64,000 nt of DNA. Source: Mesostigma viride. Lineage: Eukaryota; Streptophyta; Mesostigmatophyceae; Mesostigmatales; Mesostigmataceae. Under the pieces are notes generated by a model. It was not told the origin of the DNA and ran no database searches. It saw only the letters and a list, made by a program, of their open reading frames with translations. Of this stretch, positions 4,064 through 55,544 are shown one piece after another. Location of the stretch: NCBI GenBank assembly GCA_009746045.1, contig RPFO01000448.1, positions 2,465,009-2,529,008 on the forward strand, given 5' to 3'. The position numbers and the translations under genes were made by a program. The first letter of the stretch is position 1, and the number at the start of each line of letters is the position of its first letter.

Positions 4064-5518
4064 CAGTGTACAGCCATACGCAATACGCAATCATACGGGG
4101 CCCATGGGTATGGTGTATAATACGCCATACGGGGTATAATACGCAAATCATACGGGGACTCTTGAAAATGCTGTTTTTTGCATGGTTCAGGGGGGTCTTC
4201 AACATTCTGACCAATCAGGCATGTTTTTTTTTGTGTTCTTGCAACACCACTTGCCTTTATTTAACACATCATCACATAATATTGCCGTTGCCGTCGCTGC
4301 ATGCCTACAAATACAAGCATTGTACATCTGTTGTTATTAATAATGTCTGTAAATAGCACAAAATAACAAAGTTGTATGCACAATCAGTGCACACCTGAAA
4401 AGGATAGTAACACAAGTAGATATGCATGCACATTGACACTTGCAGTGGTATAGAGATCGCTGCCACCATTACTGTATGTTGAAGTTAAAAAACCATGCCA
4501 TCACTGCATGGAATGGCTATACTAGGACTGAAATACTGCACATGGTCAGTCGGCCAACTTGCCAAAAGTAATAAGACATTGTGCCAGAAACAGACATCTT
4601 GCCTACTCGTGGTAGGCCACCATGCAATATTGATCTACATGAAGCAAGAATCCATACGGGCTGCCAACAATGTGGCTAGCGTGCAGGATAGCATGCATGC
4701 CAGCAACCCGACCCAGCTTCCCTAAACCATTAACACATATGGTACGGTGGCTGGCTAGCAGCAGCCTGCATGGCTAAATAAGGCATTTATGTGCATCGCG
4801 AGTCACACCAAATACCCCGCAGCCTGCGACGTAATGCCTCCGGCGGCCTCTTGCACTCGCTCACTCTTGCCTCCTTCGCATACGTAGCGCCCATGATATG
4901 GCGGGTGCTAGCCTTGCTCGGGTGGTAGAACCCGAGAATTTTGCATCCAAAAGTGTGCACGTCACTGAGCTAGTAGTTACCTGTCGGCTGCCCTTTCTTG
5001 TTGAGAGTCTGTTCTTTCACGATGTGTGTCCAGACAGTCTCGAATACGGCCTGCATCTCGTCGGCCCCATTATCATCGTGTTCCATAGACCCACACCATC
5101 ACCGTCGCTAGCCATGGTGCCTGGATGTCAATTGTGCTACGATTAATTAAATGTTAGGTGCCAGATGCGCGCCCTTGTTGGCAGACAACATAACTTCGTC
5201 ACCTAATTTCCTCGTCCTTCGTCAGTCCTAGACCCTAGTCCGACACGCAGCAATCTGCAGCAATGCACGTACAGTCGTACATGCACGGCCAGCTTGGCAC
5301 CTGCATCTAGTTCCGGCTCCACGTGCCGTCCAAAATGATGCCAGAAGCTACTTCGAACGAGGTTCATACGCAAAAAATACGCAAAAAATACGCAATACGC
5401 AAAAAATACGCAAACAATACGCAGTGCGTATTTTTTTTCCCATTTTCATACGGAAATCTTGCGTATGGCGTATAATACGCGCCATACGGCGTATTATACG
5501 CCGTATGGCTGTTCACTG
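4064..5518. mobile_element. Non-autonomous hAT-superfamily element with intact TIRs and 8-bp TSD
   Basis: The two ends form a 17-bp terminal inverted repeat with one mismatch, CAGTG(T/A)ACAGCCATACG. The CAGTG start is typical of hAT elements. The element is flanked by a perfect 8-bp direct repeat, ATGCTCTC, at 4056-4063 and 5519-5526, the target duplication length of this superfamily. Both subterminal regions (about 4071-4160 and 5368-5510) are packed with TACGC repeats in both orientations, including a hairpin near the right end with 14-bp arms at about 5467-5502. Such arrays are the usual binding sites for hAT transposase. The 1.2-kb interior holds no transposase-like frame, so the element depends on an enzyme encoded elsewhere. 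Confidence 0.92.
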
Positions 5519-6237: not shown

Positions 6238-8376
6238 TCAGCCCGGCTCAGCATGCAGATGCACGTTGCATTCTGTGCATGTCATGTTGATCTTGCTGTC
6301 CTCCTTGCATGCAGCGCACCTCTTTTTCACAGGGCTCACACCTGGAGCATGGATAGCAGCCTGGGCAAAGACGACCTTTGGCTTTCTCCATGCCAGGCGG
6401 GCAGGACCGTTGTCAGGGCGCCTGGCCCTCTTGTCCATCTCCTCAGCTGCAAACAGCATCTCCCTTGCCAGCTGCGCCCTGAATTCCTTTTGGCTAGTGA
6501 AAGCATCATCGCCCCGCTGGAGCTGCTGGTACTTGTAGGCAGTGACCACCGCCAGGTTGATGAGCCACAGAAACGTGCGGTGCCACGGGCGCCTCGTGAC
6601 GATCTCCATGTTGCAGTTGGCACCCAGCTGGTCAAACCGGTCCACCCCGCTCTTGTGCTGATCATAGAAGGACTTGACAGTAGGGATGACTACCTCCTCG
6701 AACTCACGGTCCAGTCGGTCCTTAATTCTTGTTCCACCGTTCCTTGGTCACAGGCTCGTCGTTGTCAGGGTTGCCATGCCTGGTGGAGTAGAACCTCACC
6801 ACCTTCGTGTCCACGTAGGTGAATGCAGAGAGTGCCTTGCCAGTGGCAATCTCCCTCATCCTGTGCATCATGTCACCACGCACCATACCCTGTGCCTTTG
6901 CCTCCTGGTCGGTGATGTTGATGTCAGCAGGGTAGCACTTCTTGTCCTTCCTGACCGTGCCCACATAGAACAGCCCCTTCTCAGCTAGCCACTCAGCGAG
7001 CGGTGCGGAGCTAAAGAAGTTATCTGCCACAACTGTCGCGTTTGGTGGCAGCCTAGCATAAACCTTGTGCACCAAGCCTGCCACCCACGTGGCCCCAGTA
7101 GCCTTCCCACCTGCCCCAGCTGCCAGCAAGCCCAGCTCCTCGTGCGTGGGCAGCCCCACCGACCACCGCTGACCGCCCAGAAAAGGAATGAAATAGAGCA
7201 GGACACCTAGCTGTTTGCCCACATGCAATGGCGTAATGCTTTACCCCCCAGCGCGAATGCGAGGGCTTGTCTGGCATGTACTGACGAATATCATTCTTGC
7301 CCCTTGTGAACTCCATCGACTCATCCACAGCTACCACCCCGCTTGGTGTGAACGTGCCATTGCACAGGTTGCCCTGAATGTGCTCGATCATCCTACGTGA
7401 ATACCACATGGGGTCATAGTCAGGGTCGTCCTTTGCCATTACGCGCTCGTCTCCGCTGACATCCCTCACACTCAGATTGCGCAGAATATCCTGAAATCTG
7501 TTGAGTGTCATGATGGCCTGAATGCTTGCTAGACCAATATAACAGTCGCTAGACCAGTATGTGGCGAAGCTACCCTTGTGCCAGTGAATGGACATCAGCA
7601 GCAGGCAGGAGATGAAACGGAGGAGCTCAGCAGACGTGCAAGGCTCCCAAGTGCGCCCCTTCTTACTCGCGGCAGCCAGATCGTCCCGGCGCCCTTGCGC
7701 CTTACGGTTGGTCCACTTCGCCACCATGTCGATGAACTCAATGTGCAGCACCAGATGGAAAAATGCGAGGCATGTCAAACCCTCTCCCCTCTCATGCAGC
7801 TTTGCACGAGGAGGAGGTTCTTTGGCCGCTGCCGGCATGTCCAGATCGTAGCCTCCCCACAAATCTGCCCCTTCTTGACCATCGGCATCGCTCGTGCCCT
7901 GCCCCGCAGGCCGGTGCCTGGCCACGGCGCCCCCCACTGCCTTGCCCACCGCCAGCAGACCTTCCGCGCTTTGCAGGGCGCACCCCGTCGTCACCATCAT
8001 CGTCGTCCCTCTCATCTACCTCGTCACTCTCTGGCTCAGAATCATCGGCATCGTCTTCGTCGCTCTCTGAACTGCAGCTATCGGAGTTGTCGCCAACCTC
8101 CTTGAAGTTTTTCCTGCCCTGATCGTTCCACCATTTCTCGCACTGGGACTTCTTGTACCACCAACTATTGCCGTCATCCTCGAAGGTCAGCTCCATCTTG
8201 TACCCATCCCGGCCACCGCCAGCGGCACAGGCCGTCACGATACCTACGTAGTCATTGCCCGGGTCGCTAAATTCGATGCCGGGAACGCGCAAAACTCGCC
8301 CTATCCACAATTTTCGCAAGGAAGGCGCCATAACCTTCCCGCGCTCAAACGGACCGATTTCGCGCGAAAATGTCAC
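6238..8376 (-). pseudogene. piggyBac-type (DDE_Tnp_1_7) transposase pseudogene 1
   Basis: The minus strand reads through a full-length piggyBac-like transposase in several frames. From the N-terminus there is a small folded module (about 8330-8130: WIGRVLRVPGIEF, then DYVGIV and SWWYKK), a long acidic Ser/Asp/Glu tract (8110-7990), the catalytic core, and a Cys-rich C-terminus (CAACKEDSKINMTCTECNVH) of the kind that binds terminal repeats in this family. The three catalytic aspartates sit in VAVDESM, VVADNFF and SGVDRFD, so the active site residues survive. Frame breaks occur near 7950, 7220 and 6723, and the last exposes a premature TAA. No intron explains them. It is therefore a decayed but fairly recent copy. 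Confidence 0.85.
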
Positions 8377-9262: not shown

Positions 9263-11554
9263 TTACACATCAGAAGATGTGCCCGTGATGTGGGCCTTGT
9301 AGCACGCGCACCTGTGCTTAATTGCCCGCCAGAGGGCGCACACACGTAGTAGACATTCTTGTTCAGCGTCGAGCACGCACTCCTTGCAGCTGAACCATGC
9401 AGCACGTACTTCATGTGGCACAGCTAGGTAGCACCGCTTCTGCTTCTTCACCCTCTCGAGGGTGTGACCGCTGCCCCCCAGCAGGAGTGGTGTGACCGAC
9501 GTCCTGGTGGGTCGCTGCCGGCGGCCCCCCCCGCGCACAGGGCGCGGCGGCGCGCCCTGCCACCTCGAGGTAGTGGCGGTATGACGCGTTGAAGCCGGGG
9601 ACCACCATGCGCATGGCGAAGAAGCCGTTGGTGTGAGCATGGTGGACATGCTCTCCGAGATCTCACGCGTCTTGTAGTTCTTGGTGTGCCATAATATGCC
9701 GCTCATCGCCATGCCCCGATGCCCGAGCCCTGCCACAGCTGGTTGTTCTGATACGTCGATGCCACCCATCTGGGTGCGGTACAGCTCCCAGATGGGTGAT
9801 GATGCTGTGCATCCTCCCATCCATGCATGCGGTGGTCCATGCAGTACGTACTTCTCCTGCTGGTTGCCCTGCAGCGTGCATGGTGGAGCTGCCACGAGGC
9901 CACAAGCAGGAGGGGCAGCTTGCATGGACATGTGACCATGCACACGTACGCATATAGATGGGCATGGTCTCCTTGTTAGGCAGCGGCACCGCGTCGCCTT
10001 GTACGCCACGTGCTGCCCGCGCGTCTTGAGGTCCGCCATGAGCGCATGCATCCTTGGGGAATTGTTCTAATGTGGCCCGTCTTGACGTTGAGCACCCCGT
10101 ACGTGCATGCCCATCCATGATCGAGATGGGACAGGGCCACCACGGACTTCGCTGCTGGGTGATGATGCTGTGCAGCTAGCCTTCCATCTGCGGTGGTCCC
10201 GCCAGTACTTCTCGATCCTGCTGGTTGCCCTACAGCGTGGTGGAGCACGAGGCCACAAGCAGGAGGGGCAGCTTGGACATGTGACCACACGCATAGATGG
10301 GCATGGTCTCCTTGTTATATAGGTGCCCAGTGGCACCGTCGCCTTGCTTGTACGCCACGTGCTGCCCGCGCGTCTTGAGGTCCGCCATGAGCGCATCCTT
10401 GGGGAAGTTCTTGTGGCCCGTCTTGACGTTGAGCACCCCGTACGTGCCTATCTATCCATGAGATGGGACAGGGCCACTGCACGGACTTCACCGAGCCGGA
10501 CCACGAGTCCGCGATGAGGATGTCGCCCTTGCCCGCCCAGGCACCGAGCCGAACCACGAGCCGCAACGTGAGGCCAGTGGAGTTGCCCCACTCTGCATTG
10601 TGACTCCTTGGTCCCGGCTCATCATGGCTGCGGCCCCGGCCCTCCTGAATCTCCATGCCGATCAGAATGCAGGACTCGGCCGGCTGCATCCGCGATGGTC
10701 TTCAGCTCACGGCCGATCGGCTTGGGCTTTATTATACGATCGAGCGACCACCATGAGCCCCGGCATCCCCTTCCCCAGCCTTAGGTGATCATGCTCTCGT
10801 CCGCGACGAGCAGCGAGCCAGGTGAGACCCCAGACTGCAGGTGCCTGTTCACAGTGTCATACCAGCCCCTAAATGCAGCAAAGTCATCATTTTCTGCAGC
10901 ATCCTCCTTGGGGGGGAACCCGAAAGTCCATGTCATCCGCTCGAATGTCCTGCGGTCCATGAAGCGCTTGAAATTGTTATATCGACAGTGCCGTTCTTCT
11001 CCCAGTAAACTTGGTAACCACCGATCGACAGCAGGGAGAGCCATCATCAAGCAGCGCACGCCAATGAATTGCCAAGAAAGATCCACGGCGTTACCTCCCA
11101 GCCGGCACCATAACCCTTGTCCTGGCCGACCTTGGTCATGTGGCGACAGAAATCAGCTCGACGCCACGGATGAAAAAGCGAACAAACGCAGACGGATCCG
11201 ACGTGCGCGCCTCGGTAAATTAAGCCGACCAAGCTCGCCTTCTTGAGGTCCGCCGAGAAGCTGGCTGCGCGAAAATCGGTCCGGATTGTGGTTTTCGTGG
11301 TCGACCACTGAGGAATGAAGAGCGGGGACGCACCATCGCCAGGCCTGTCCGTGATTATAAACGGTCCCAAACGTCAGGGGCGTGCTGGCGCTCATCGTCG
11401 GAGTCGGTCAGTCGATTTCGTCGGCAAAACCATCCTCCTCCGACTCAGGCTCCACGACAGGAGGCTCCGTCTCAGAGCTCGGCCCTGCACATGCCGCAGC
11501 GTCAACATCCATAGGAACGATCGCCGAGCTCCCAGACCCGGAATATGGCAGGAG
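9263..11554 (-). pseudogene. piggyBac-type (DDE_Tnp_1_7) transposase pseudogene 2, different clade
   Basis: A second minus-strand transposase of the same superfamily, too different from copy 1 to be a recent duplicate. An acidic N-terminal region (about 11554-11400, VVEPESEEDGFADEID) precedes the core. Recognisable steps are GVRCLMMALPAVDRW, SLLVADESM (first Asp), IKPKPIGRELKTIADAA, ILIADSW (second Asp), FPKDALMADLKTRGQHVAYK, and QMGGIDVSEQ (third Asp). A CKEC-type C-terminus follows, with a stop near 9263. Many frame shifts are present. The block around FPKDALMADLKTRG occurs twice because of an internal tandem duplication, so the gene cannot be functional. Confidence 0.75.
9798..10500 (-). 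repeat. Tandem duplication of about 350 bp inside transposase pseudogene 2
   Basis: Unit A (about 9798-10158) and unit B (about 10159-10500) align along their whole length, both starting GATGATGCTGTGCA. They differ mostly by 4-bp insertions such as GTAC, GATC, CATG and TATA, discussed in the findings. The duplication repeats the segment encoding FPKDALMADLKTRG. Confidence 0.8.
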
Positions 11555-12338
11555 CATGTCGAGGGGCGTTTGAGAGCAAAATCCTTGCACGCATGGGCCT
11601 TCTTGGTGAGATTAAGCTGACCGCCCACCGCCTCCCCCGCGCGCGGGGTAAGGCAGGCGGGCGCCTCCGCTTCTTCTCATCTTTGAGAGCCCAGCGGACA
11701 AGATTTCGTTTCTCAGACGCCGCAAGCGGCTCGAGAACACTCCCTTCACCGTGGACGACGACTTGAACCTGGCGCAGCAACAACGGCGACGGGAGCTATG
11801 GCCGACCTACCTCCAGCTCCGGCAGACCAAGGCGGGCCAGCTGGTGTACTGGAAGGGGGCGCGGCCATCTACGTCGGCCACAAGCCCTGGCACGCGACCC
11901 CCTCGACCACCGCGGCCCCAGCGACCCCAGAAGCCCGGCCAGCCTAGGGGAATACAGCAGCAGTAGTGTAGAATAGTTAGACAGTGGCCTTTGTACATGC
12001 ATGCCCGCCTACTACAGGCACTATACCAGCTGAGGCCTAGCCTTTTTAGTCATGTACATGTGTGCCTATCATGAGCCACCCTCCAGATGATGCCTAGCTT
12101 TATTTTATTATGCCGTGCCCATGCAGGGAGTCACTCTCTGCTGAGAAGCCATGCCCTAGCTCTTGTATAGCTATGCTGATCTTCCCCACCTATGACGGGC
12201 TCCCCTTAGCTGGGTGTTGCCCGAGACTCTGGGTGGTGCAGGTGCCCTAGTGCACCTAGAGCAAGTGTTGTTTACATTCTTACCCTTGCAGGAAGTAGCT
12301 TAGAATGTATTATAGGCCATATGCCCCTTCTCTGGGCT

Positions 12339-12397
12339 ATTAATTAATTAATTAGTAGGAACAGAACTCCGTTGGGAGTATCTGTAGCACATATCCC
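12339..12397 (-). repeat. Retroelement 3' terminal hairpin with (TTAA)n tail at the palindrome centre
   Basis: Read on the minus strand it runs GTGCTACAGATACTCCC-AA-CGGAGT and then a TAATTAATTAATTA tail. The same arrangement recurs on the plus strand at 15735-15795 and, more loosely, near 16405, 18265, 18370, 23915, 24050 and 44730. Confidence 0.6.
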
Positions 12398-12846
12398 TGA
12401 GAAGGGGCATATGGCTTTTGATACATTCTAGGCTACTTCATGCAATTAGGGTGGGAATGTAAGCTACCCTTGCCGTCTAGGTGCACCATGCAGGGCACCG
12501 GCACCCTCATGATCTATCACGCTATGCCCAGCTAAGGGGGAGCATGTCATACATGGGGGAAGATCATCATGGCTATACAAGAGCTAGGGCATGGCTTCTC
12601 AGCATGCAGAGAGTGACTCCCTGCATGGGCACGGCATAGTAAAATAAAGCTAGGCATCATCTGGAGGGTGGCTCATCATAGGCACACTGTCATATGTACA
12701 TGACTAAAAATGCTAGGCCTCAGCTGGTATAGTGCCTGTAGTAGGCGGGCATGTACAAGGCTACTGTCTAACTATGCTACACTACTGCTGCTGTATTCCC
12801 ATAGGCTGGGGCTTCTGCATGGGGTCGCTGGGGCCGCGGTGGTCGA

Positions 12847-13059
12847 AGTTAGGTTAATATTTGTGCGGAAACCTTTTGCCACTTGGGCTTCTCAGGTTCC
12901 GCACAATATTACCGGCGATAACCACTCGCCGGTACACTCAAGTTCACGCCGGCTTGAACTTGAGTGTACCGGCGAGTGGTTATCGCCGGTAATATTGTGC
13001 GGAATTAACCTGAGAAGCCCAAGTGGCAAAAGGTTTCCGCACAAATATTAACCTAACTG
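12847..13059. mobile_element. 213-bp fold-back (near-perfect hairpin) element with TCGA target duplication
   Basis: The element is almost entirely a hairpin: two arms of about 100 bp with an 8-nt loop (CACGCCGG). The ends read (A)GTTAGGTTAATATTTG and its complement. It is flanked by TCGA at 12843-12846 and 13060-13063. The other arm of the large palindrome has the uninterrupted target (CCCTCGACCACC near 11900), which confirms an insertion and the boundaries. The only length difference between its two arms is an extra TTAA in the right arm. Confidence 0.88.
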
Positions 13060-13429
13060 TCGAGGGGGTCGCGTGCCAGGGCTTGTGGCCGACGTAGATG
13101 GCCGCCCCCTTCCAGTACACCGGCTGGCCCGCCTTGGTCTGCCGGAGCTAGCTGGAGGTAGGTCGGCCATAGCTCCCGTCGCCGTTGTTGCTGCGCCATG
13201 CACCTGGTCAAGTCGTCGTCAAGGGTGAAGTGAGTCTTCTCGAGCCGCTTGCGGCGTCTGAGAAACGAAATCTTGTCCGCTGGGCTCTCAATTAAAGATG
13301 AGAAGAAGCGGAGGCGCCCCTGCCTTACCCCGCGCGCGGGGAAGGCGGTGCAGGCGGTCAGCATCACCAAGGAGGCCCATGCGTGCAAGGATTTTGCTCT
13401 CAAACGCACGTGCAAGCTTCTCGGAATTC

Positions 13430-16539: not shown

Positions 16540-17095
16540 CCATTTCCATAGATATTCCCCATATTTCGGATGAGATTAGGCAGCATAGGATCTAGCATTT
16601 GTAGGACATCTTGCCCGAACCAGTACGTCAGGTAGACACCGCCCTTAATTGGTCTGGCCGGCCGGCCCCCAGCGGTTTGGCCAGCCATGCAGGACAGACG
16701 CCGGCATATCCTGACCTGGCCTCCAGGCCCCCAAGGACACTGCGCCGCCGCGGGCGGGTACGCAGACCTGCTGGATGAACTTCTTTACATATCAGTTGCT
16801 GGCGACCTAGTGGTCCCGGCCAGCCCAGTTTGAATAACGCACATTTCCTCCCTCTAGCTCTCTGGCAGTGGACTGCTAACTATGCAGGACAATAATTATG
16901 TATATAGAGGTGCATGCATGCACATGCATGGAAGACCATATTGTCCAGGTCCACACGCCAGAAACTGTGGGCAAGCCCCCCTCCCCCAGGCATCCGGAAG
17001 GGGCACTTTGCTGATCGAGTAGAGTAGCTAGGATTAATCTTGAAGCTTAGATTATTCGCTTAGAGTTAGCTTATACTTACTTACTACATACCTGT
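16540..17095 (+). mobile_element. Non-LTR retrotransposon 3' fragment, copy A
   Basis: Corresponds to the end of the reverse transcriptase ORF and its 3' tail: it aligns with 17790-18230 from the GGATGAGATTAGGCAGC segment to CGCTTAGAGTTAGCTTA. It is 5'-truncated and not translatable. Its differences from the neighbouring copy are dominated by 4-bp palindromic insertions (see findings). Confidence 0.75.
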
Positions 17096-17187
17096 TCATT
17101 ACTGTCGTGGATCACGTTATGCGCCGGGCACGTGCGCGCTTTACTGCTCCGAGCCCCGTGATGATGTGATGATGTCCAAGCCGGCGG

Positions 17188-18235
17188 CTTGGACATCATA
17201 CTAACGAGCGCGAACATGGCGGCGGGTGGCCCTGGTTACAACCTGTCCGACCTGATTTATGCGGATGATACCACCCTCATCGAGCGCCCCGACTGCACAT
17301 TCAGACCTGGCAGCCTGGACTGTCTGGGCTTGGAGGCGCGGGCAGTGGGGTTGGAGATTAGTGTCAAAATGGAGGCGATGGTGGTTGGGGCAACCAGTCG
17401 CCCACCGCTGCCGCGGCTGCTAGACGGGAAGGAGGTCGAGTTCCGTGATCGCTTCAAACTGCTGGGGAGCATGCTCCCTGACACCGCCGACGATGTCGGG
17501 ACATCCGCATCGGCCTGACCTAGCTGGGCTCTAGAGGCATCGGTCGCTCAAAACCTACTGGCAAGCTCGAAGGCCCTGGGCGAGCACCGCAAGCGCATGC
17601 TCCTCAAGGTCCTGGCTGGTCCTCACGGTGCTCACCTATGGCGCCGAGGAAATATGGACGCTCACGGACACGCTGGCCACACGGCTGAACGGCATGCACG
17701 GTAACCAGGATGCTCCGGCCAGGCCCTGCTGCATGAACGTAGGGTTTTCCACACATAGGTCATTAGGGTCTTTGTATACCCGGGTATGGCCTCGCATTTC
17801 GGACGAGATTAGACAGCGTAGGATAGCATTCGTAGGACATCTTGCTCGCACCAGTCAGGTAGACACCGACCTCGGTCTGGCCGGCCCCCAGCGGATTGGC
17901 CAGCCAGGGCGGCTTGTCCTGACCTGGCCTGGCCCCAAGGACATTCCTAAAAGGGTAGGTAAACATGTCATGACGGCTACCCACAGCAGTTGTTGGCTGA
18001 CCTAGCTAGTGGTCCCAGCCCCGTTTGATCGAACATCACATTCACTCCCTCTCTCTTGCTTGGACTGCTATGCAGAACAAGAAGAGGAGGAAGACGATTG
18101 TCCATGCAGGCTCACACGCCAGCCCCTGTGGGCAAGCTCCCTCCCCCCAAGAGGAAGGGGCGCTTTGCTGAGTAGAGTAGCTAGGGTTTTCTAGCTAGAT
18201 TAGATTAGCTTAGAGTTAGATTAGTTCGGTTTCGC
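17188..18235 (+). mobile_element. Non-LTR retrotransposon, 5'-truncated reverse transcriptase copy B
   Basis: Begins within the reverse transcriptase palm domain. DLIYADDTTL (17251-17280) holds the catalytic YADD box. The thumb-like region AVGLEISVKMEAMVVG and FKLLGSMLP follows. After frameshifts near 17515 and 17625 comes VLTYGAEEIWTLTD, and then QRRIAFVGHLARTSQVDTD before the stop at 18003-18005. The order matches the fuller copy at 22426-23700. The 3' tail carries the CTAG-rich stretch and leads into tandem terminal hairpins. It is a dead copy, typical of incomplete target-primed reverse transcription. Confidence 0.85.
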
Positions 18236-18240
18236 GGCTT

Positions 18241-18440
18241 CGCCCACCTCCATCCATCCAGCAAGGGAATATGTGCTACATGATCTCCCAAGGGAGTCAT
18301 GTTATAATTTAATTTTAATTTAGCTTGGCTTAGGTTTCGCGCCGCTTAATTCGCTCACCCCCACCCATCATGGAATACGTGCTACATGATCTTCCAATGG
18401 AGTCATGTTGTAATTAAACTTTTCAATTTTTAATTTAGTA
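18241..18440 (+). repeat. Two tandem retroelement 3' terminal units with hairpin
   Basis: Two related units (about 18241-18311 and 18336-18440) each hold CATGATCTCCC-AA-GGGAGTCATG or a close variant, forming a strong stem-loop, followed by TTAATTT-rich tails. The same doubled arrangement ends the element at 22426. Confidence 0.65.
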
Positions 18441-22425: not shown

Positions 22426-23770
22426 ATGCGGCTCATCCTGAACCGCCTGCGCACGGCCCTGGACGGTCACCTCAGCGAGACTCAGCACGGCTTCCGTTCA
22501 GGTCGCAACACAGTACAGGCGCTCTTCGCTACTCGCCGCCTAGTGGAGGAACTGCAACGCCTTCAGCCTGGTGAGTCCCCTTTGCACCTTGTGCTGGTGG
22601 ACTTCATCAAAGCCTTCGATTCGGTTTTCTGGCCTGCGCTTTGGGACATCCTCGAGTTGTTCCGGATCCCCCGCCCCCTGATTGCTGTCATCCGCAACCT
22701 GTATGAAGGGTCCACCACTTCGGTGCGCACTTCTTACGGGACCACGCCCCCATGATGCCCTTTACAGAAGGGTGTGTGGCAGGGCTGCGTGCTGTCGCCC
22801 TACCTGTTCATTATTGTTGTCGAATACGTAATGATTCAGGCGCGCAAGCGATTTGCCCGCATCGTGGGCAGGGAACCAGGAGTGCAGGTTGCTAACAAAT
22901 TCTGGCATGGCGGTGCGGACACGGAGATTCGGCTAGCAGACATCATTTACGCAGACGACACCACCCTCTTCGAGGACACTGAGCACGTGCAGACATGGCT
23001 TGACTGCCTGGCTCTCGAGGCCCGCGCGCAGTGGGGCTTGAGGTCAGCAAGAAGACAGAGGCCCTGGCGGTTGGGCTTACCAACTCACCGCCGCCCCTCT
23101 ATCTCCTAGACGGCTCTCGAGTCCTGTATCGGGACCGCGTTAAGCTGCTGGGCAGCCTGCTCCCCAGCTGCGAGGTTGATGTGGACCATCGCATCTCCCT
23201 CGCCTGGCACGCTTTACGCCAGTACCGGGCCCTGTGGCGCAAGCCCCTGGGCAAGATCGAGAAACAGGACCTGTTCAAGGTCCTCATCCTTCCTGTTCTC
23301 ACGTATGGCGCCGAGACGTGGACCCTCACCGCCGACCTGGCCCGCAAGCTGGACGGCGCGGTCACCAACATGCTGCGTTCCATTTTCAGAGTAGGATATG
23401 CTGCTCATGTCCGCAATGAGGACCTGTACCAGGGCATGCCCTATATCACCAGCACCATTAAGCAACGCCGCCTGCAGCTAGTAGGGCACCTAGCTCGCAC
23501 CAACCAGGTAGACACCTCACGTGGCCCCCCGCAGGACTGCGACCAGCCCAGCCTGGCCGGCACCTCCTGACGTGGGCTGGGCCCAGTGATGTTAGACGCC
23601 GCAAGGCCCGCACCTTCAAAGAACAGCTAGTCGAGGACATGGGGGGCCTAGGCCTCTCCGTGATTTGGAAGAAGATGATGGACAAGGCCAAGTGAGCCCA
23701 GGTCATAGAGGACAACGAGCCCCCCCCAGTGGGGAAGCGCCCGCGTGTGCAATCCCGCGGGAGGCACGCC
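22426..23770 (+). mobile_element. Non-LTR retrotransposon with reverse transcriptase, 5'-truncated and decayed
   Basis: The reverse transcriptase (target-primed DNA synthesis) is well preserved: LSETQHGFRSGRNTVQALFA, then LVLVDFIKAFDSVFW (first catalytic Asp), GVWQGCVLSPYLF, IIYADDTTLFED (catalytic Asp pair), VKLLGSLLPSCEVD, VLTYGAETWTLTADLA and QRRLQLVGHLARTNQVDT. A premature TGA at 22753-22755 lies in frame, and a 1-2 nt shift near 23035 separates ARA from VGLEVSKK. The 5' end including any endonuclease is missing. The 3' part ends near 23770 in a Pro-rich tail. Confidence 0.9.
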
Positions 23771-48623: not shown

Positions 48624-51600
48624 TCAAATCGAGGTCAACCGCCGGCGCGCCCCCATCTCCCCCAGCACGCGTATCAGCCGCTGCCGCATGGTCGCGGTGA
48701 ACGCGAGCATGACGAGCATGAGCACGGCGATCGACATGACCACGCTGCGTGTGGACAGGTGGCGCCGTGGGAGCAGCCCATGCAGCAAGCCCCCCGAGTG
48801 CCGGTGGTGGCCTCCATGCGTGCCCTGTGGGTCTGGGAGGTGCACCCCTGTGACCACACTGCTGCCATGGCTGCTTCCTACCAGTGACCCCTCGGCAGGC
48901 GTGATGCCGCCGTGGCGGGGCCCCTCGGGGCACTCGATGACGCAGCGGGCGCAATCACACGCGCCGCCATAGAGCCGCGGCAGGCAGGCCTCAGAGACAT
49001 GGTCAAACAGACGGCGGTGCTCGTGGCGTCCCACGACGACGATCTTCTGCTGCGTGATCGGGTGCAGCCACGCCTTGACGGCGGTCACGACCAGGTTGAG
49101 AGTGGGGGAGGCGTCGGTGAGGAGCATGCGCTTGAGGCGGAGCGGGTAGTTGTGGGCAAGTGTGCGCGCGATGCCTTTCACGAGACCCAGCGGCGCGTTG
49201 GTGATGCCCACGCCGGAGCAGTCCATGACCACCACCATCTGCTCGCGCTGCTCTTCCTCAAACAGGCATGCGACCGCGTACTCGGTTTGGCTGACTGCGG
49301 GGTGATAAAGGGGGGGGCGCGGTTGGAGGAGTTGTGTGTGTGTGTGTAAAATTGAGAGAGATAGAAAGCAAAAGGAAGTGGGTTCATGTATGGACAGAGG
49401 GGGAAAAGAGGATCGGAGGGGTGGCTAAGGGAGAATGATCAAAATTACAAGTCCATTTCAAAAACGGCATGCCCTCCCCCCCCGCCCCCCACCCATCATT
49501 CCCGTCAGCCCCGCCCCGCCCCTCCCCGCCCCGCCCCGCCCCGCCCCCCCCCCCCCCATCCCATCCCGACAATGTTGGCATCATGTCGGCCCACCATGTT
49601 GGCAGCATAGGAAGCCATGCATGTGTGCACACATATGATGGGAAAGAATCCTTCCCTTCCTCACCCACCCCACCCCCACCCCACCCCCACCCCACCGCCC
49701 TCCCAACCCCATCCCAACCCCATCCCACCCGCATCCCAACCCCATCCCAAGCCCATCCCAACCCCATCTCAACCCCTCACGTACTGATGGCCTCGATGAA
49801 CCGCGCGTGGTGCAGCCTCCGGTTCTTGAACGCATCGAGCGCCTCCCCCACTTTGATCACCAGCACGGGCTCCCCCGCGAGCCCCTCCTTGTGCCAGTAC
49901 ACGAGCTTGCTCCAGCTGGTCAGCTCGGCCGCGGTCATGAACGTGTGGCCGCTGCGCCAGGCCAGGTGGGAGCGCACGCGGCGCGCGGCCACGCGCACGT
50001 CCATGCTGGACACACGCATGTAGCGGAGCAGCTCGCCGCCCTCCATCCTGGGGGAAGAGGGCGAGATGCCAGGGATGAGGGCGGGGTGGGGTGGGGTGGG
50101 GTGGGGTGGGGTGGGGTGGGGTGGGGTGGGGTGGGGTGGGGTGGGGTGGGGTGGGGTGGGGTGGGGTGGGGTGGGGTGGGGTGGGGTGGGGTGGGGTGGG
50201 GTGGGGTGGGTGGGGTGGGGTGGGGTGGGGTGGGGTGGGGTGGGGTGGGGTGGGGTGGGGTGGGGGAATAAAGTGGTGAGTAGTCGAAAGAGGTTATCAC
50301 TCGCCGCCCTCAATCATGGGGAAAGATGGCTGAATTCCAGGGGTGAGGGCGCGATGCCAGGTATGAAGGCAGGATGAGTGCGGAGTCGTAGGTGCGGGGA
50401 AGTCCAGGGGTTACAAGGGGTGAGAGAAAGGTTGAGGAGTAAAGGAGGCAACATCAACCAATGGGATTTAAAAAATCGCTCACCACCCTCCATCCTGGGC
50501 AGTGGGTGAGGTGCCAGGGATGAGGGGGGGGAGTGACGATGTCGGGCTGGGTGCGGGCCTCATGGGTTGAGAGGGTGAGGATATAGCGTGGAAAATGCGG
50601 TGAGGAGGGTGTACCGTGGATAAAGTAAGTGGGATTTAGTCGAAATGAAAATACGGTGGCAAGGACCAATCCAAAGGGGTAATCTATTTACCGTCGTCCA
50701 TCCTGGGGAAGAGGGCTAACTGCCATGGGGTGCAGTGCCAGGGAGGAGGGTGGGGTGATCAGGGGGGGGGAGTGAGGGCGGGGGAATGAGGGCGGGGGAA
50801 TGAGGGCGGGGGGATGAGGGCGGGGGGATGAGGGCCGGGTGAGTGTCGGGCCGAGGGCTAAAACAAAGGAGTTGAATAAGGGTGAGGGTGTACCACCATG
50901 TAGCGCCATGCGCGGGCAGGCGGGCCAACAATCTCGCTGCCTGCTCCCAAGGGGGCCAAAGGCACCCGCAGGCAGTCTAGTACCAGGATAAAAAGCCTAG
51001 ATACTTCTTGGCAGGCAACCTGCTGATTGACAACTAATGTCATTTGTTGCCCTTTGTTGGCAACCTGCCAGTTATCAATTCAGCATGTTCACTCTCGCTA
51101 CGCGATTCATAATCCGTTCACGCTTGTGTGGCGCAAGCAGCTTGCAGGACGGTAGGGGGGCAAGTGTAATCCGTTCACGCTTGTGTGGCGCGAGCAGCTT
51201 GCAGGACGGTAGGGGGGCAAGTGTAATCCGTTCACGCTTGTGTGGCGCGAGCAGCTTGCAGGACGGTAGGGGGCAAGTGTAATCCGTTCACGCTTGTGTG
51301 GCGCGAGCAGCTTGCAGGACGGTAGGGGGGCAAGTGTAATCCGTTCACGCTTGTGTGGCGCGAGCAGCTTGCAGGACGGTAGGGGGGCAAGTGTAATCCG
51401 TTCACGCTTGTGTGGCGCGAGCAGCTTGCAGGACGGTAGGGGGGCAAGTGTAATCCGTTCACGCTTGTGTGGCGCGAGCAGCTTGCAGGACGGTAGGGGG
51501 GCAAGTGTAATCCGTTCACGCTTGTGTGGCGCGAGCAGCTTGCAGGACGGTAGGGGGGCAAGTGTAATCCGTTCACGCTTGTGTGGCGCGAGCAGCCTGC

Positions 51601-54600
51601 AGGACGGTAGGGGGGCAAGTGTAATCCGTTCACGCTTGTGTGGCGCGAGCAGCTTGCAGGACGGTAGGGGGGCAAGTGTAATCCGTTCACGCTTGTGTGG
51701 CGCGAGCAGCTTGCAGGACGGTAGGGGGGCAAGTGTAATCCGTTCACGCTTGTGTGGCGCGAGCAGCTTGCAGGACGGTAGGGGGGCAAGTGTAATCCGT
51801 TCACGCTTGTGTGGCGCGAGCAGCTTGCAGGACGGTAGGGGCGCAAGTGTAATCCGTTCACGCTTGTGTGGCGCGAGCAGCTTGCAGGACGGTAGGGGGC
51901 AAGTGTAATCCGTTCACGCTTGTGTGGCGCGAGCAGCTTGCAGGACGGTAGGGGGGCAAGTGTAATCCGTTCACGCTTGTGTGGCGCGAGCAGCTTGCAG
52001 GACGGTAGGGGGGCAAGTGTAATCCGTTCACGCTTGTGTGGCGCGAGCAGCTTGCAGGACGGTAGGGGGGCAAGTGTAATCCGTTCACGCTTGTGTGGCG
52101 CGAGCAGCTTGCAGGACGGTAGGGGGGCAAGTGTAATCCGTTCACGCTTGTGTGGCGCGAGCAGCTTGCAGGACGGTAGGGGGGCAAGTGTAATCCGTTC
52201 ACGCTTGTGTGGCGCGAGCAGCTTGCAGGACGGTAGGGGGCAAGTGTAATCCGTTCACGCTTGTGTGGCGCGAGCAGCTTGCAGGACGGTAGGGGGGCAA
52301 GTGTAATCCGTTCACGCTTGTGTGGCGCGAGCAGCTTGCAGGACGGTAGGGGGGCAAGTGTAATCCGTTCACGCTTGTGTGGCGCGAGCAGCTTGCAGGA
52401 CGGTAGGGGGGCAAGTGTAATCCGTTCACGCTTGTGTGGCGCGAGCAGCTTGCAGGACGTTAGGGGGGCAAGTGTAATCCGTTCACGCTTGTGTGGCGCG
52501 AGCAGCCTGCAGGACGGTAGGGGGGCAAGTGTAATCCGTTCACGCTTGTGTGGCGCGAGCAGCTTGCAGGACGGTAGGGGGGCAAGTGTAATCCGTTCAC
52601 GCTTGTGTGGCGCGAGCAGCCTGCAGGACGGTAGGGGGGCAAGTGTAATCCGTTCACGCTTGTGTGGCGCGAGCAGCTTGCAGGACGGTAGGGGGGCAAG
52701 TATAATCCGTTCACGCTTGTGTGGCGCGAGCAGCTTGCAGGACGGTAGGGGGGCAAGTGTAATCCGTTCACGCTTGTGTGGCGCGAGCAGCTTGCAGGAC
52801 GGTAGGGGGGCAAGTGTAATCCGTTCACGCTTGTGTGGCGCGAGCAGCTTGCAGGACGGTAGGGGGGCAAGTGTAATCCGTTCACGCTTGTGTGGCGCGA
52901 GCAGCTTGCAGGACGGTAGGGGGGCAAGTGTAATCCGTTCACGCTTGTGTGGCGCGAGCAGCTTGCAGGACGTTAGGGGGGCAAGTGTAATCCGTTCACG
53001 CTTGTGTGGCGCGAGCAGCTTGCAGGACGGTAGGGGGGCAAGTATAATCCGTTCACGCTTGTGTGGCGCGAGCAGCTTGCAGGACGGTAGGGGCGCAAGT
53101 ATAATCAGTTCACGCTTGTGTGGCGTGAGCAGCTTGCAGGACGGTAGGGGGGCAAGCTGGGCAAGCTCCCCTCAAGCATGAACAACAACAATAAAAATTG
53201 TGAGCACATCCAACAGAGACAAGGGGCATGGAATCGCAAGGCCTTACCACGGCGGCACTGTGATGTGCTCCGCAGCGAGCGCGGCCGTCAGGCTGCGCAC
53301 CGCCGCATTCTCCTCCTCAGTGTGCAGGCTAGGGGGGCAGGGCAAACACAGAACAAGTTTGTGGGGCAGCAAAAACAATTAAGATCACTAAGCTCCCAAC
53401 AAGACCAGCATTTGCTTGAATACAATAAGTTGAGCCCTGCCACAAATGCAGCAGTTAACAGTGGCCTTAAGGTTTCTCAATCCGCACGCGGAAGCAAGAA
53501 GCCTCCAGGATGGGAGGGAGGGGAAAGAAACAATTGTAGATCATTGCCAGCCTAGCTTTCTTAAGGCATGGTCCGCCGACACACAAGCTGACATCATCCT
53601 AAATTAAGTAACACCGGCATGCGTCACAGGCCGGCCTGAACAGTGCTGAAAACGCCACTACAAACAACGTGGTCACGCACCCCCAGGCTAGCGCGTTAAC
53701 CGTACAGGTAGTTGTACAAAGTTCCCAAGACTGACAAACATAAAACTCGCCCATCGACCCCTTGGACCGGTCCGAATCCACTACACAATAATAAGTCACG
53801 ACTCACTAACAAAACCAAATCAGTCAAAGATTCGTTAAGCAACCAGCCGACCCTACAGGTCCCCAGATGATCTCAGCCGGTGCAACCAAATACGAATCTT
53901 TGCAAGCAAGTCGTATAAAACCTACAATTAACTTTCTCGGACCATTAATTAATAGCCACCGACCCTTATAAACAACCGGGTCATCCAAGGAGAATTCAGG
54001 CGAACATGAAACCCTTTGTACAAATCGAATTTGTCAGCCCATGTCGCAGACAGCCTTCCTCATGCAGGCCAAGGCATAGCGGCCCTATCTTTCCCGCATG
54101 TGTTAATTAAACTATATTCAGAGAAAACCGATTAGTTTATTAACAAATAGGGAAAAAGCTCACAAGCTCGCCTAGAGCAAGTTTCTGGGCCAGTAAAGGA
54201 CAAGCTGATAAGCCCCCCCCAAAGTTTAGCCCCCCCCCACACACACAGGGGAAAAAAAATAATAAAAAAAATGATGGGGCCGAGTACAAGTTAAATGGGC
54301 GATATATGACATGTTTACAGGCCAACAGGAAAAAATTTACGGGCCAGGGTAACAAGGGCCAGCAGGGATCAACAGGGGCAAACAGAAAACGGGATCCTTG
54401 ACCAGCAATCGAGTTGAACTTTTTATGGGGGGCGGGGACAGAGAGCCCCAGCCATCACAAGTCTATGCTTTTACAGTGTCGGGGTATGATGGACGTTTGC
54501 ATGGAGCATAATTCCAGGTATAGAGGGGGGTGAAGTGTAGGGGTGGGAGGATAAGAGAAAGGAGCGGTACTTATCAGAAGCACAGCAAGGACCCTGCATC

Positions 54601-55061: not shown

Positions 55062-55480
55062 TCCAGCAGGAGTAGAAGAGTGGTAACGTCGGCGAGCCGG
55101 CGCAACGGGCGAAAGGATGAGGGAGAAAAACATTCCACACTAGGGCATGGCCACGTAAAACCGTTCACATCCTAAGTTGCGTTCTGATCAAATGAAAGCA
55201 CACACACAGACAAAAAACTAAGGAAAAAGAAAAAACAACGTCAATAAAACTAAGATGTTAAACCCAACGTGAGTGGAGCTGTTTGAATGGACTATCTATG
55301 CTGCTACTACTTGGTGCAGTGGCCACAAGCCACGGAAGTCCAAGTTAAAACATGGGTGCAACTCATGCAGACTGCAACCCATGCAAACCCAACTTTAAGT
55401 CGTGAAAAGCTGCAAACATATACTAGACAACAAGGACAACCTACGTTACGAAGCAGGAAATTGCATGGAAAACAGACCAA
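55062..55480. other. Spacer upstream of the SEC14-like gene
   Basis: No gene seen. It may hold upstream promoter sequence. Confidence 0.35.
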
Positions 55481-55483
55481 CCC

Positions 55484-55544
55484 TAAATCCTAAACCCTAA
55501 ACCCTAAACCCTAAACCCCAAACCCTAAACCCTAAACCCTAAAC
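55484..55544. repeat. Interstitial telomere-type repeat (CCCTAAA)n
   Basis: About eight units of CCCTAAA, one with CCCCAAA and one TCCTAAA at the edge. This is the Arabidopsis-type telomere repeat (TTTAGGG on the other strand), used also by some green algae, and differs from the Chlamydomonas TTTTAGGG type. It is internal, since ordinary sequence and a gene continue on both sides. Confidence 0.93.

Follow-up and report, generated by a model that had tools for sequence, protein, structure and literature searches.

Palindromic 4-bp Insertions of Uniform Form in Repeat Copies of Mesostigma viride, Possible Excision Footprints of a Hairpin-Forming DNA Transposon

Two neighbouring copies of a retroelement, located in a 64,000-nucleotide stretch of the genome of the unicellular streptophyte green alga Mesostigma viride (the whole stretch is referred to below as the window), raise the question why length differences between repeats in this genome are so often palindromic tetranucleotides, and what kind of process could have left them. 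The original prediction, made from the letters of the window, was that nearly all 4-bp differences between the two copies are palindromic and result from fill-in or trimming of ends with 4-nt self-complementary overhangs.

Sequences and Counting of Indels

The sample for the indel counts consisted of the window, 29 related loci (3.2-3.5 kb each) and further stretches of the genome, together about 280 kb (a little of it N) of about 440,000 kb; the assembly comprises 439.9 Mb in 2243 contigs. Two proteins of the window gave one database match each; both matched proteins are named jgi/Mesvir1, with 96% identity across 20% of the query in one case and 63% across 40% in the other. Self-alignment by BLAST yielded 2531 usable alignment rows, from which similar sites were merged into distinct indels; simple-sequence alignments were excluded prior to counting, and a gap was retained only where 8 well-aligned bases flanked it on either side. 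A stricter complexity filter, applied early for several preliminary counts, also removed alignments longer than about 700 bp, and the final counts, which include 462 4-bp indels, are free of that loss. Comparison is possible between repeat copies only. For the polarity of the changes, 31 sequences (29 loci and two overlapping stretches of the window, in 41 aligned pieces) were compared with a LINE 3' consensus, which carries one misjoined inverted stretch at about positions 309-440.

Scars in Retroelement Copies A and B

Copy A (16563-17073, forward strand) and copy B (17279-18264, forward strand) were both delimited with the family consensus, copy A also by its alignment to copy B, as 3' parts of a LINE carrying several scars each. 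Copy A and the 17796-18223 portion of copy B showed 67.5% identity in alignment. In a related LINE copy of the window an RVT_1 match (E 9e-6) that falls short of the curated Pfam cut-off was located at 22774-23106.

Compared with the family consensus, copy A carries insertions of ACGT (16625-16628, GT to GTACGT), CCGG (16816-16819, CC to CCGGCC), CTAG (16854-16857, CT to CTAGCT) and GATC (17013-17016, GA to GATCGA), as well as a change of TT to TTAATT with adjoining differences at 16645-16651. For copy B, insertions of AGCT (17522-17525, CT to CTAGCT), GATC (18027-18030, GA to GATCGA) and CATG (18103-18106, CA to CATGCA) were found, together with a CTAG (18002-18005) adjoining a CTAG that was already there. 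The predicted palindromic character of the 4-bp differences therefore stands for ACGT, TTAATT, CTAG and GATC in copy A and for CTAG in copy B, while two further cases are not clean: the LINE consensus already reads GGCTGGCCGGCC at the GGCC run, and the CATG at 16688-16691 is mixed with other changes. Four palindromic insertions, namely CCGG in copy A and AGCT, GATC and CATG in copy B, had been overlooked. Both copies also show non-palindromic length differences against the family consensus, among them a 4-bp insertion, CTAA, at 16876-16879 of copy A.

Excess and Exact Form of the Palindromic Indels

With 462 distinct cases in about 280 kb, 4 bp was the commonest indel size in the self-alignments, compared with 382 indels of 1 bp, 426 of 2 bp, 257 of 3 bp and 99 of 5 bp. 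Under some placement 165 of the 462 were palindromic and 297 were not. The placement-corrected expectations are 8% for random deletion and 12% for tandem duplication, and when random or tandem 4-bp insertions were planted in repeats and passed through the same BLAST pipeline, 47/660 and 47/578 palindromes (7-8%) were recovered. The predicted excess is thus confirmed over both expectations and over the simulations, and the palindromic 4-bp indels are real. Palindromes made up 17 of the 29 4-bp indels in repeat pairs at least 90% identical. Among stretches chosen without a retroelement query they made up 12 of 14, 20 of 29 after more stretches were included, and 24 of 57 once the complexity filter had been relaxed to its final setting, which admits more repetitive rows.

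The pattern is more specific than palindromic character alone. When w stands for two bases and rc(w) for their reverse complement, the longer allele contains w·rc(w)·w, as in CA to CATGCA, for 142 of the 462 4-bp indels, where random positions predict 5.1; the simulated repeats yielded 16/660 and 28/578 (2-5%) palindromes having a 2-base repeat of this kind. The repeated unit is strongly restricted in length. A 1-base w was found in 70 of 426 2-bp indels (22 expected, with palindromic dinucleotide duplications included), a 3-base w in 2 of 87 6-bp indels and a 4-base w in 0 of 64. In the 83 exact w·rc(w)·w cases, CA/TG (34) and GA/TC (18) were the most frequent units. Full tandem duplications accounted for 40 of the 462 4-bp indels and for 20 of the 165 palindromic ones. 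One-sided products, i.e. 2-bp insertions making w·rc(w), were also above expectation (24% versus 13%), with 81 cases in a further count. Besides the dominant even palindromes there may be a minor odd class, as odd arms of at least 3 were seen in 48 of the 297 non-palindromic 4-bp events, about 32 being expected.

The form of the scar depends on whether w is self-complementary. For TA, AT, GC and CG, ww was found 36 times and www twice, while the other units gave 81 cases of w·rc(w)·w and 19 of ww, 5 homopolymer ww being set aside (Fisher P 7e-17 for ww versus w·rc(w)·w).

Polarity and Flanking Bases

Relative to the LINE 3' consensus, the 31 sequences showed 60 4-bp gains and 1 loss, and 184 insertions and 19 deletions over all indel sizes. 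Half of the distinct 4-bp gains (30/60) were palindromic, and 27 of these 30 had the dinucleotide repeat. Each of the 30 was confined to one of the 31 compared sequences, which indicates that the scars arose after the LINE copies had dispersed. Their density corresponds to 30 palindromic gains in 14.5 kb of aligned retroelement copies.

The bases beside the scars are not random. Of the 83 exact w·rc(w)·w events, 41 had C directly before w, 41 had G directly after it and 18 had both; for palindromic ww events the corresponding numbers were 18, 13 and 9 of 36. For comparison, 1-bp indels gave 101, 97 and 35 of 382, w·NN·w gave 8, 7 and 3 of 29, and ww of other, non-palindromic w gave 3, 5 and 1 of 19. 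When the expectation was conditioned on w and its neighbours, C-w-G on both sides was found in 18 of 78 events against 6.7 expected. Since w·rc(w)·w and palindromic ww share their C and G flanks, one process probably makes both. The footprint of a DNA transposon with a 2-bp duplication should combine a 2-bp direct repeat around the scar with a symmetric target preference, and both were found here, the latter as C-w-G. These flanks are not exclusive to the scars, as they also occurred at 3-bp tandem duplications (C before in 10, G after in 10 and both in 6 of 20), which might be products of the same cutter acting with a 3-nt stagger. The one-sided 2-bp class showed them weakly, with 30, 20 and 10 of 81 against 25%, 25% and 7% around palindromic tetramers generally.

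Occurrence of the Scars in the Window and in Other Repeats

Many scars were found in a tandem duplication at 9793-10489 that has no match to the retroelement consensus. It consists of a first half (9793-10150), with CATG and GATC scars, and a second half (10156-10489), which differs from the first by 22 substitutions and in length at 15 places. Errors of the retroelement reverse transcriptase were rejected as the source of the scars because they are also present in this duplication. A piggyBac-like gene, suggested for 9793-10489 by its reading frame, was not confirmed by Pfam (one 65-aa piece) or by BLASTP against the nearby and a M. viride transposase. The nearby fragment lies at 7053-8015 on the minus strand and matches the Pfam transposase family DDE_Tnp_1_7 (E 2e-27), which we take to be of piggyBac type.

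Two facing arms at 11566-13407 are probably copies of one retroelement family. The outer pair (11566-11907 and 13059-13407) differs by 10 substitutions in 333 aligned bases, and the length differences between the facing arms comprise TTAATT, AGCTAGCT, CATGCATG and two TGCATG events, in addition to 2-bp and other events. One of the arms contains a near-perfect fold-back element of 212 bp (12847-13058) with a 5-bp duplication, GTCGA.

Scars were absent from a 634-bp repeat pair, which had 45 substitutions and a single 1-bp gap, and from a 174-bp satellite, which had 1-bp gaps only. For the LINE stretch at 22700-23500 the genome holds 39 or more further copies that are 98-99% identical, which indicates that the family was recently active. 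Of the 40 best matches, 36 span 796 bases; an equal length is compatible with balanced changes, and a list of best matches only is biased against indels. Four young copies were aligned: the window copy, a second one with the prevailing length, and two selected because their length differed. The length changes among them were an ATGATG, a single A, a GC/CG change and one close to CATG, none of which is a clean w·rc(w)·w. Either the process is uneven in place or time, given these scar-free repeat pairs and young copies, or the samples are small.

Proposed Mechanism and Related Systems

The scars are, with some reservation, considered probable excision footprints of a hairpin-forming DNA transposon with a 2-bp duplication, the elements themselves probably being gone since. 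A cut-and-paste element would insert with duplication of 2 bp (w) on both sides and later leave, and at excision both flanking ends would be sealed as even (blunt) hairpins. A nuclease of the Artemis/SNM1 type would then open each hairpin 2 nt past its tip, so that one end would carry the 4-nt overhang w·rc(w) and the other the overhang rc(w)·w, both always self-complementary. Annealing through the shared 2 nt followed by fill-in would give w·rc(w)·w. With a palindromic w the overhangs would anneal over all 4 nt, so that w·w alone would remain; as w·rc(w) and rc(w)·w pair over 2 nt for ordinary w and over all 4 nt for palindromic w, the switch to ww is what overhang annealing predicts. Blunt joining would produce w·rc(w)·rc(w)·w, which was found in 0 of 87 6-bp indels; this result also favours annealed overhangs. 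The supposition of an unusual signature of the cut-and-repair type was borne out, and ends with 4-nt self-complementary overhangs fit it well, while their origin would lie in the opening of hairpins beside the break and not in a palindromic cut site.

The alignments directly support the form and polarity of the insertions, the switch that depends on w and the preference for C-w-G sites. The hairpins, a nuclease opening them and a transposase as the cutter, CACTA-like or RAG-like in behaviour, would explain these observations. In about 280 kb no inverted-repeat element with a 2-bp duplication was found, and the cutter is therefore one that we infer. Another 19 insertions, each supported by two or more alignments, were present in the same sequences; one of them, of about 714 bp (locus L020), has a 2-bp overlap, without inverted ends and without C-w-G. 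Scans of the window and of all stretches for terminal inverted repeats with a 2-bp duplication gave no convincing element among the candidates listed, which were for the most part microsatellites or palindromic words lying within long inverted repeats. DRMBL domains, typical of the SNM1/Artemis family, were located over the cut-off at two places in the genome, either of which is a putative hairpin opener.

Several known systems share part of these features. Target duplications measure 8 bp in hAT elements and 2-3 bp in the cut-and-paste CACTA/CMC DNA transposons, V(D)J coding joints are formed without one, and topoisomerase II leaves 4-bp tandem duplications of any sequence (the human ID17-type signature). 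The short duplication is a likeness to CACTA/CMC, no CACTA element having been identified here, and the excess of 4-bp insertions is a likeness to topoisomerase II, from which the scars differ in being w·rc(w)·w, with X to XX in 40 of 462. Footprints of hAT elements (Ac/Ds, Tam3) resemble the scars by the palindromic P-nucleotide insertion at the joint, seen here as w·rc(w)·w in 142 of 462. However, the hAT duplication is about 8 bp (5-8) whereas the repeated unit here is 2 bp (2/87 for a 3-base and 0/64 for a 4-base w), and the hAT palindrome is odd and centred on the complement of the base beside the element, whereas even palindromes of an almost fixed 2-nt length dominate here. V(D)J coding joints lack the duplication, while here w stands on both sides. 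Their likeness, with RAG and Artemis as the enzymes, lies in hairpins opened mostly at 2 nt and in the P nucleotides; Artemis is described as opening hairpins mostly 2 nt from the tip, and P nucleotides in coding joints as having an average length of 2 (PMC3528771). For Ac/Ds, P-nucleotide excision scars are described as the rule and attributed to hairpinned flanks, and the Artemis-related Pso2 as involved in hAT excision in yeast (PMC5873905). No account of 2-bp even-palindrome footprints at C-w-G was found in titles and abstract openings of the open-access literature; P-nucleotide footprints are already known, and to our knowledge their uniform 2-bp, even-palindrome, C-w-G version leading the indel spectrum seems undescribed.

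If the transposon reading is true, ordinary genome sequence of an alga placed close to the root of the plant lineage would preserve the geometry with which hairpins are opened (2 nt from the tip) and overhangs anneal, and hairpin-opening events could be counted in great number. The rule, w·rc(w)·w for ordinary w and w·w for palindromic w at C-w-G, could be scanned for in any genome as a trace of past hairpin-type transposition of elements that are gone, and the scars would point to a cutting enzyme worth identifying.

Alternative Explanations

A host nuclease or domesticated transposase could act with no mobile element involved, cutting C-NN-G with a 2-nt stagger mainly in repeats, the ends being hairpinned and repaired by the same scheme; taken to its extreme, this would amount to a defence against transposons through frameshifts, in the manner of repeat-induced mutation. 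The form of the scars, the switch and C-w-G suit this explanation equally, as do the density of scars in some repeat copies with absence from others and the failure to find an inverted-repeat element with a 2-bp duplication in about 280 kb. A plain break without duplicated w, however, predicts a two-sided rc(ab)rc(cd), which fits 5 of the 297 non-palindromic 4-bp events, and action on repeats only would rest on data in which only repeats can be compared, so that we regard this explanation as unlikely, though a credible contender. Distinctly unlikely, in our estimation, is a broader proposal, that an undescribed hairpin-forming cutting enzyme (2-nt stagger, C-NN-G preference) wrote uniform w·rc(w)·w scars across the genome, perhaps with no transposon left, and acts much like repeat-induced mutation but through insertions that shift the reading frames of mobile elements. 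In that case there could be hundreds of thousands of scars, if 30 per 14.5 kb is typical.

Template switching or fold-back priming, in replication or in reverse transcription, yields inverted repeats, and many scars do lie in retroelement copies. It predicts many lengths, yet a 2-base w dominates; a loop-free 2-nt fold-back should in our judgement be hard to form; and it leaves C-w-G and the scars outside the retroelement unexplained, which makes it an improbable source. The originally predicted breaks with palindromic 4-nt overhangs, filled in to give duplications or trimmed to give deletions, agree with the reality of the palindromic excess, and topoisomerase II breaks giving 4-bp duplications are known. 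This model fails because the short allele usually lacks the tetramer: full tandem duplications (X to XX) make up 20 of the 165 palindromic events, gains outnumber losses by 60 to 1, and w·rc(w)·w is not predicted, leaving the model very improbable. An artefact of assembly or alignment might be suspected from the noisy long reads, polished with short reads, that are described for the published M. viride assembly (PMC6947507), if that is the genome analysed here. The same-pipeline simulation gave 7-8% palindromes, though, and base-level errors are not expected to obey w·rc(w)·w, C-w-G and the switch at self-complementary w; we can hardly credit this explanation.

Other Insertions and Elements

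Besides the palindromic scars, a minor class of insertions consists of ACTGA (10 cases) and CTGNC (12 cases), mostly at CA(G) sites, and is partly made of odd palindromes (CACTGAG, CTGNCAG). Duplications of the triplets CTA/TAG and 5-7-bp insertions of direct-repeat type were also present. All of these classes look like footprints of other elements.

Further mobile elements were noted in the analysed DNA. An element at 4064-5518 is hAT-like, judged by its inverted ends (CAGTGTACAGCCATACGC...) and by an 8-bp duplication, ATGCTCTC, that is perfect. An inverted-repeat element of about 527 bp lies inside a retroelement copy (L022:973-1501), with a 3-bp duplication, TTA, by our reading. Short tandem tails such as AATT, ACTT and ATTTC terminate the retroelement pieces inserted in L011, L018, L020, L030 and other loci, and several of these pieces have overlaps of 5-17 bp at the target. 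At 51110-53156 the window also contains a 57-bp minisatellite of 36 copies (98% matches), and at 55479-55544 an array of AACCCTA that resembles plant-type telomeres.
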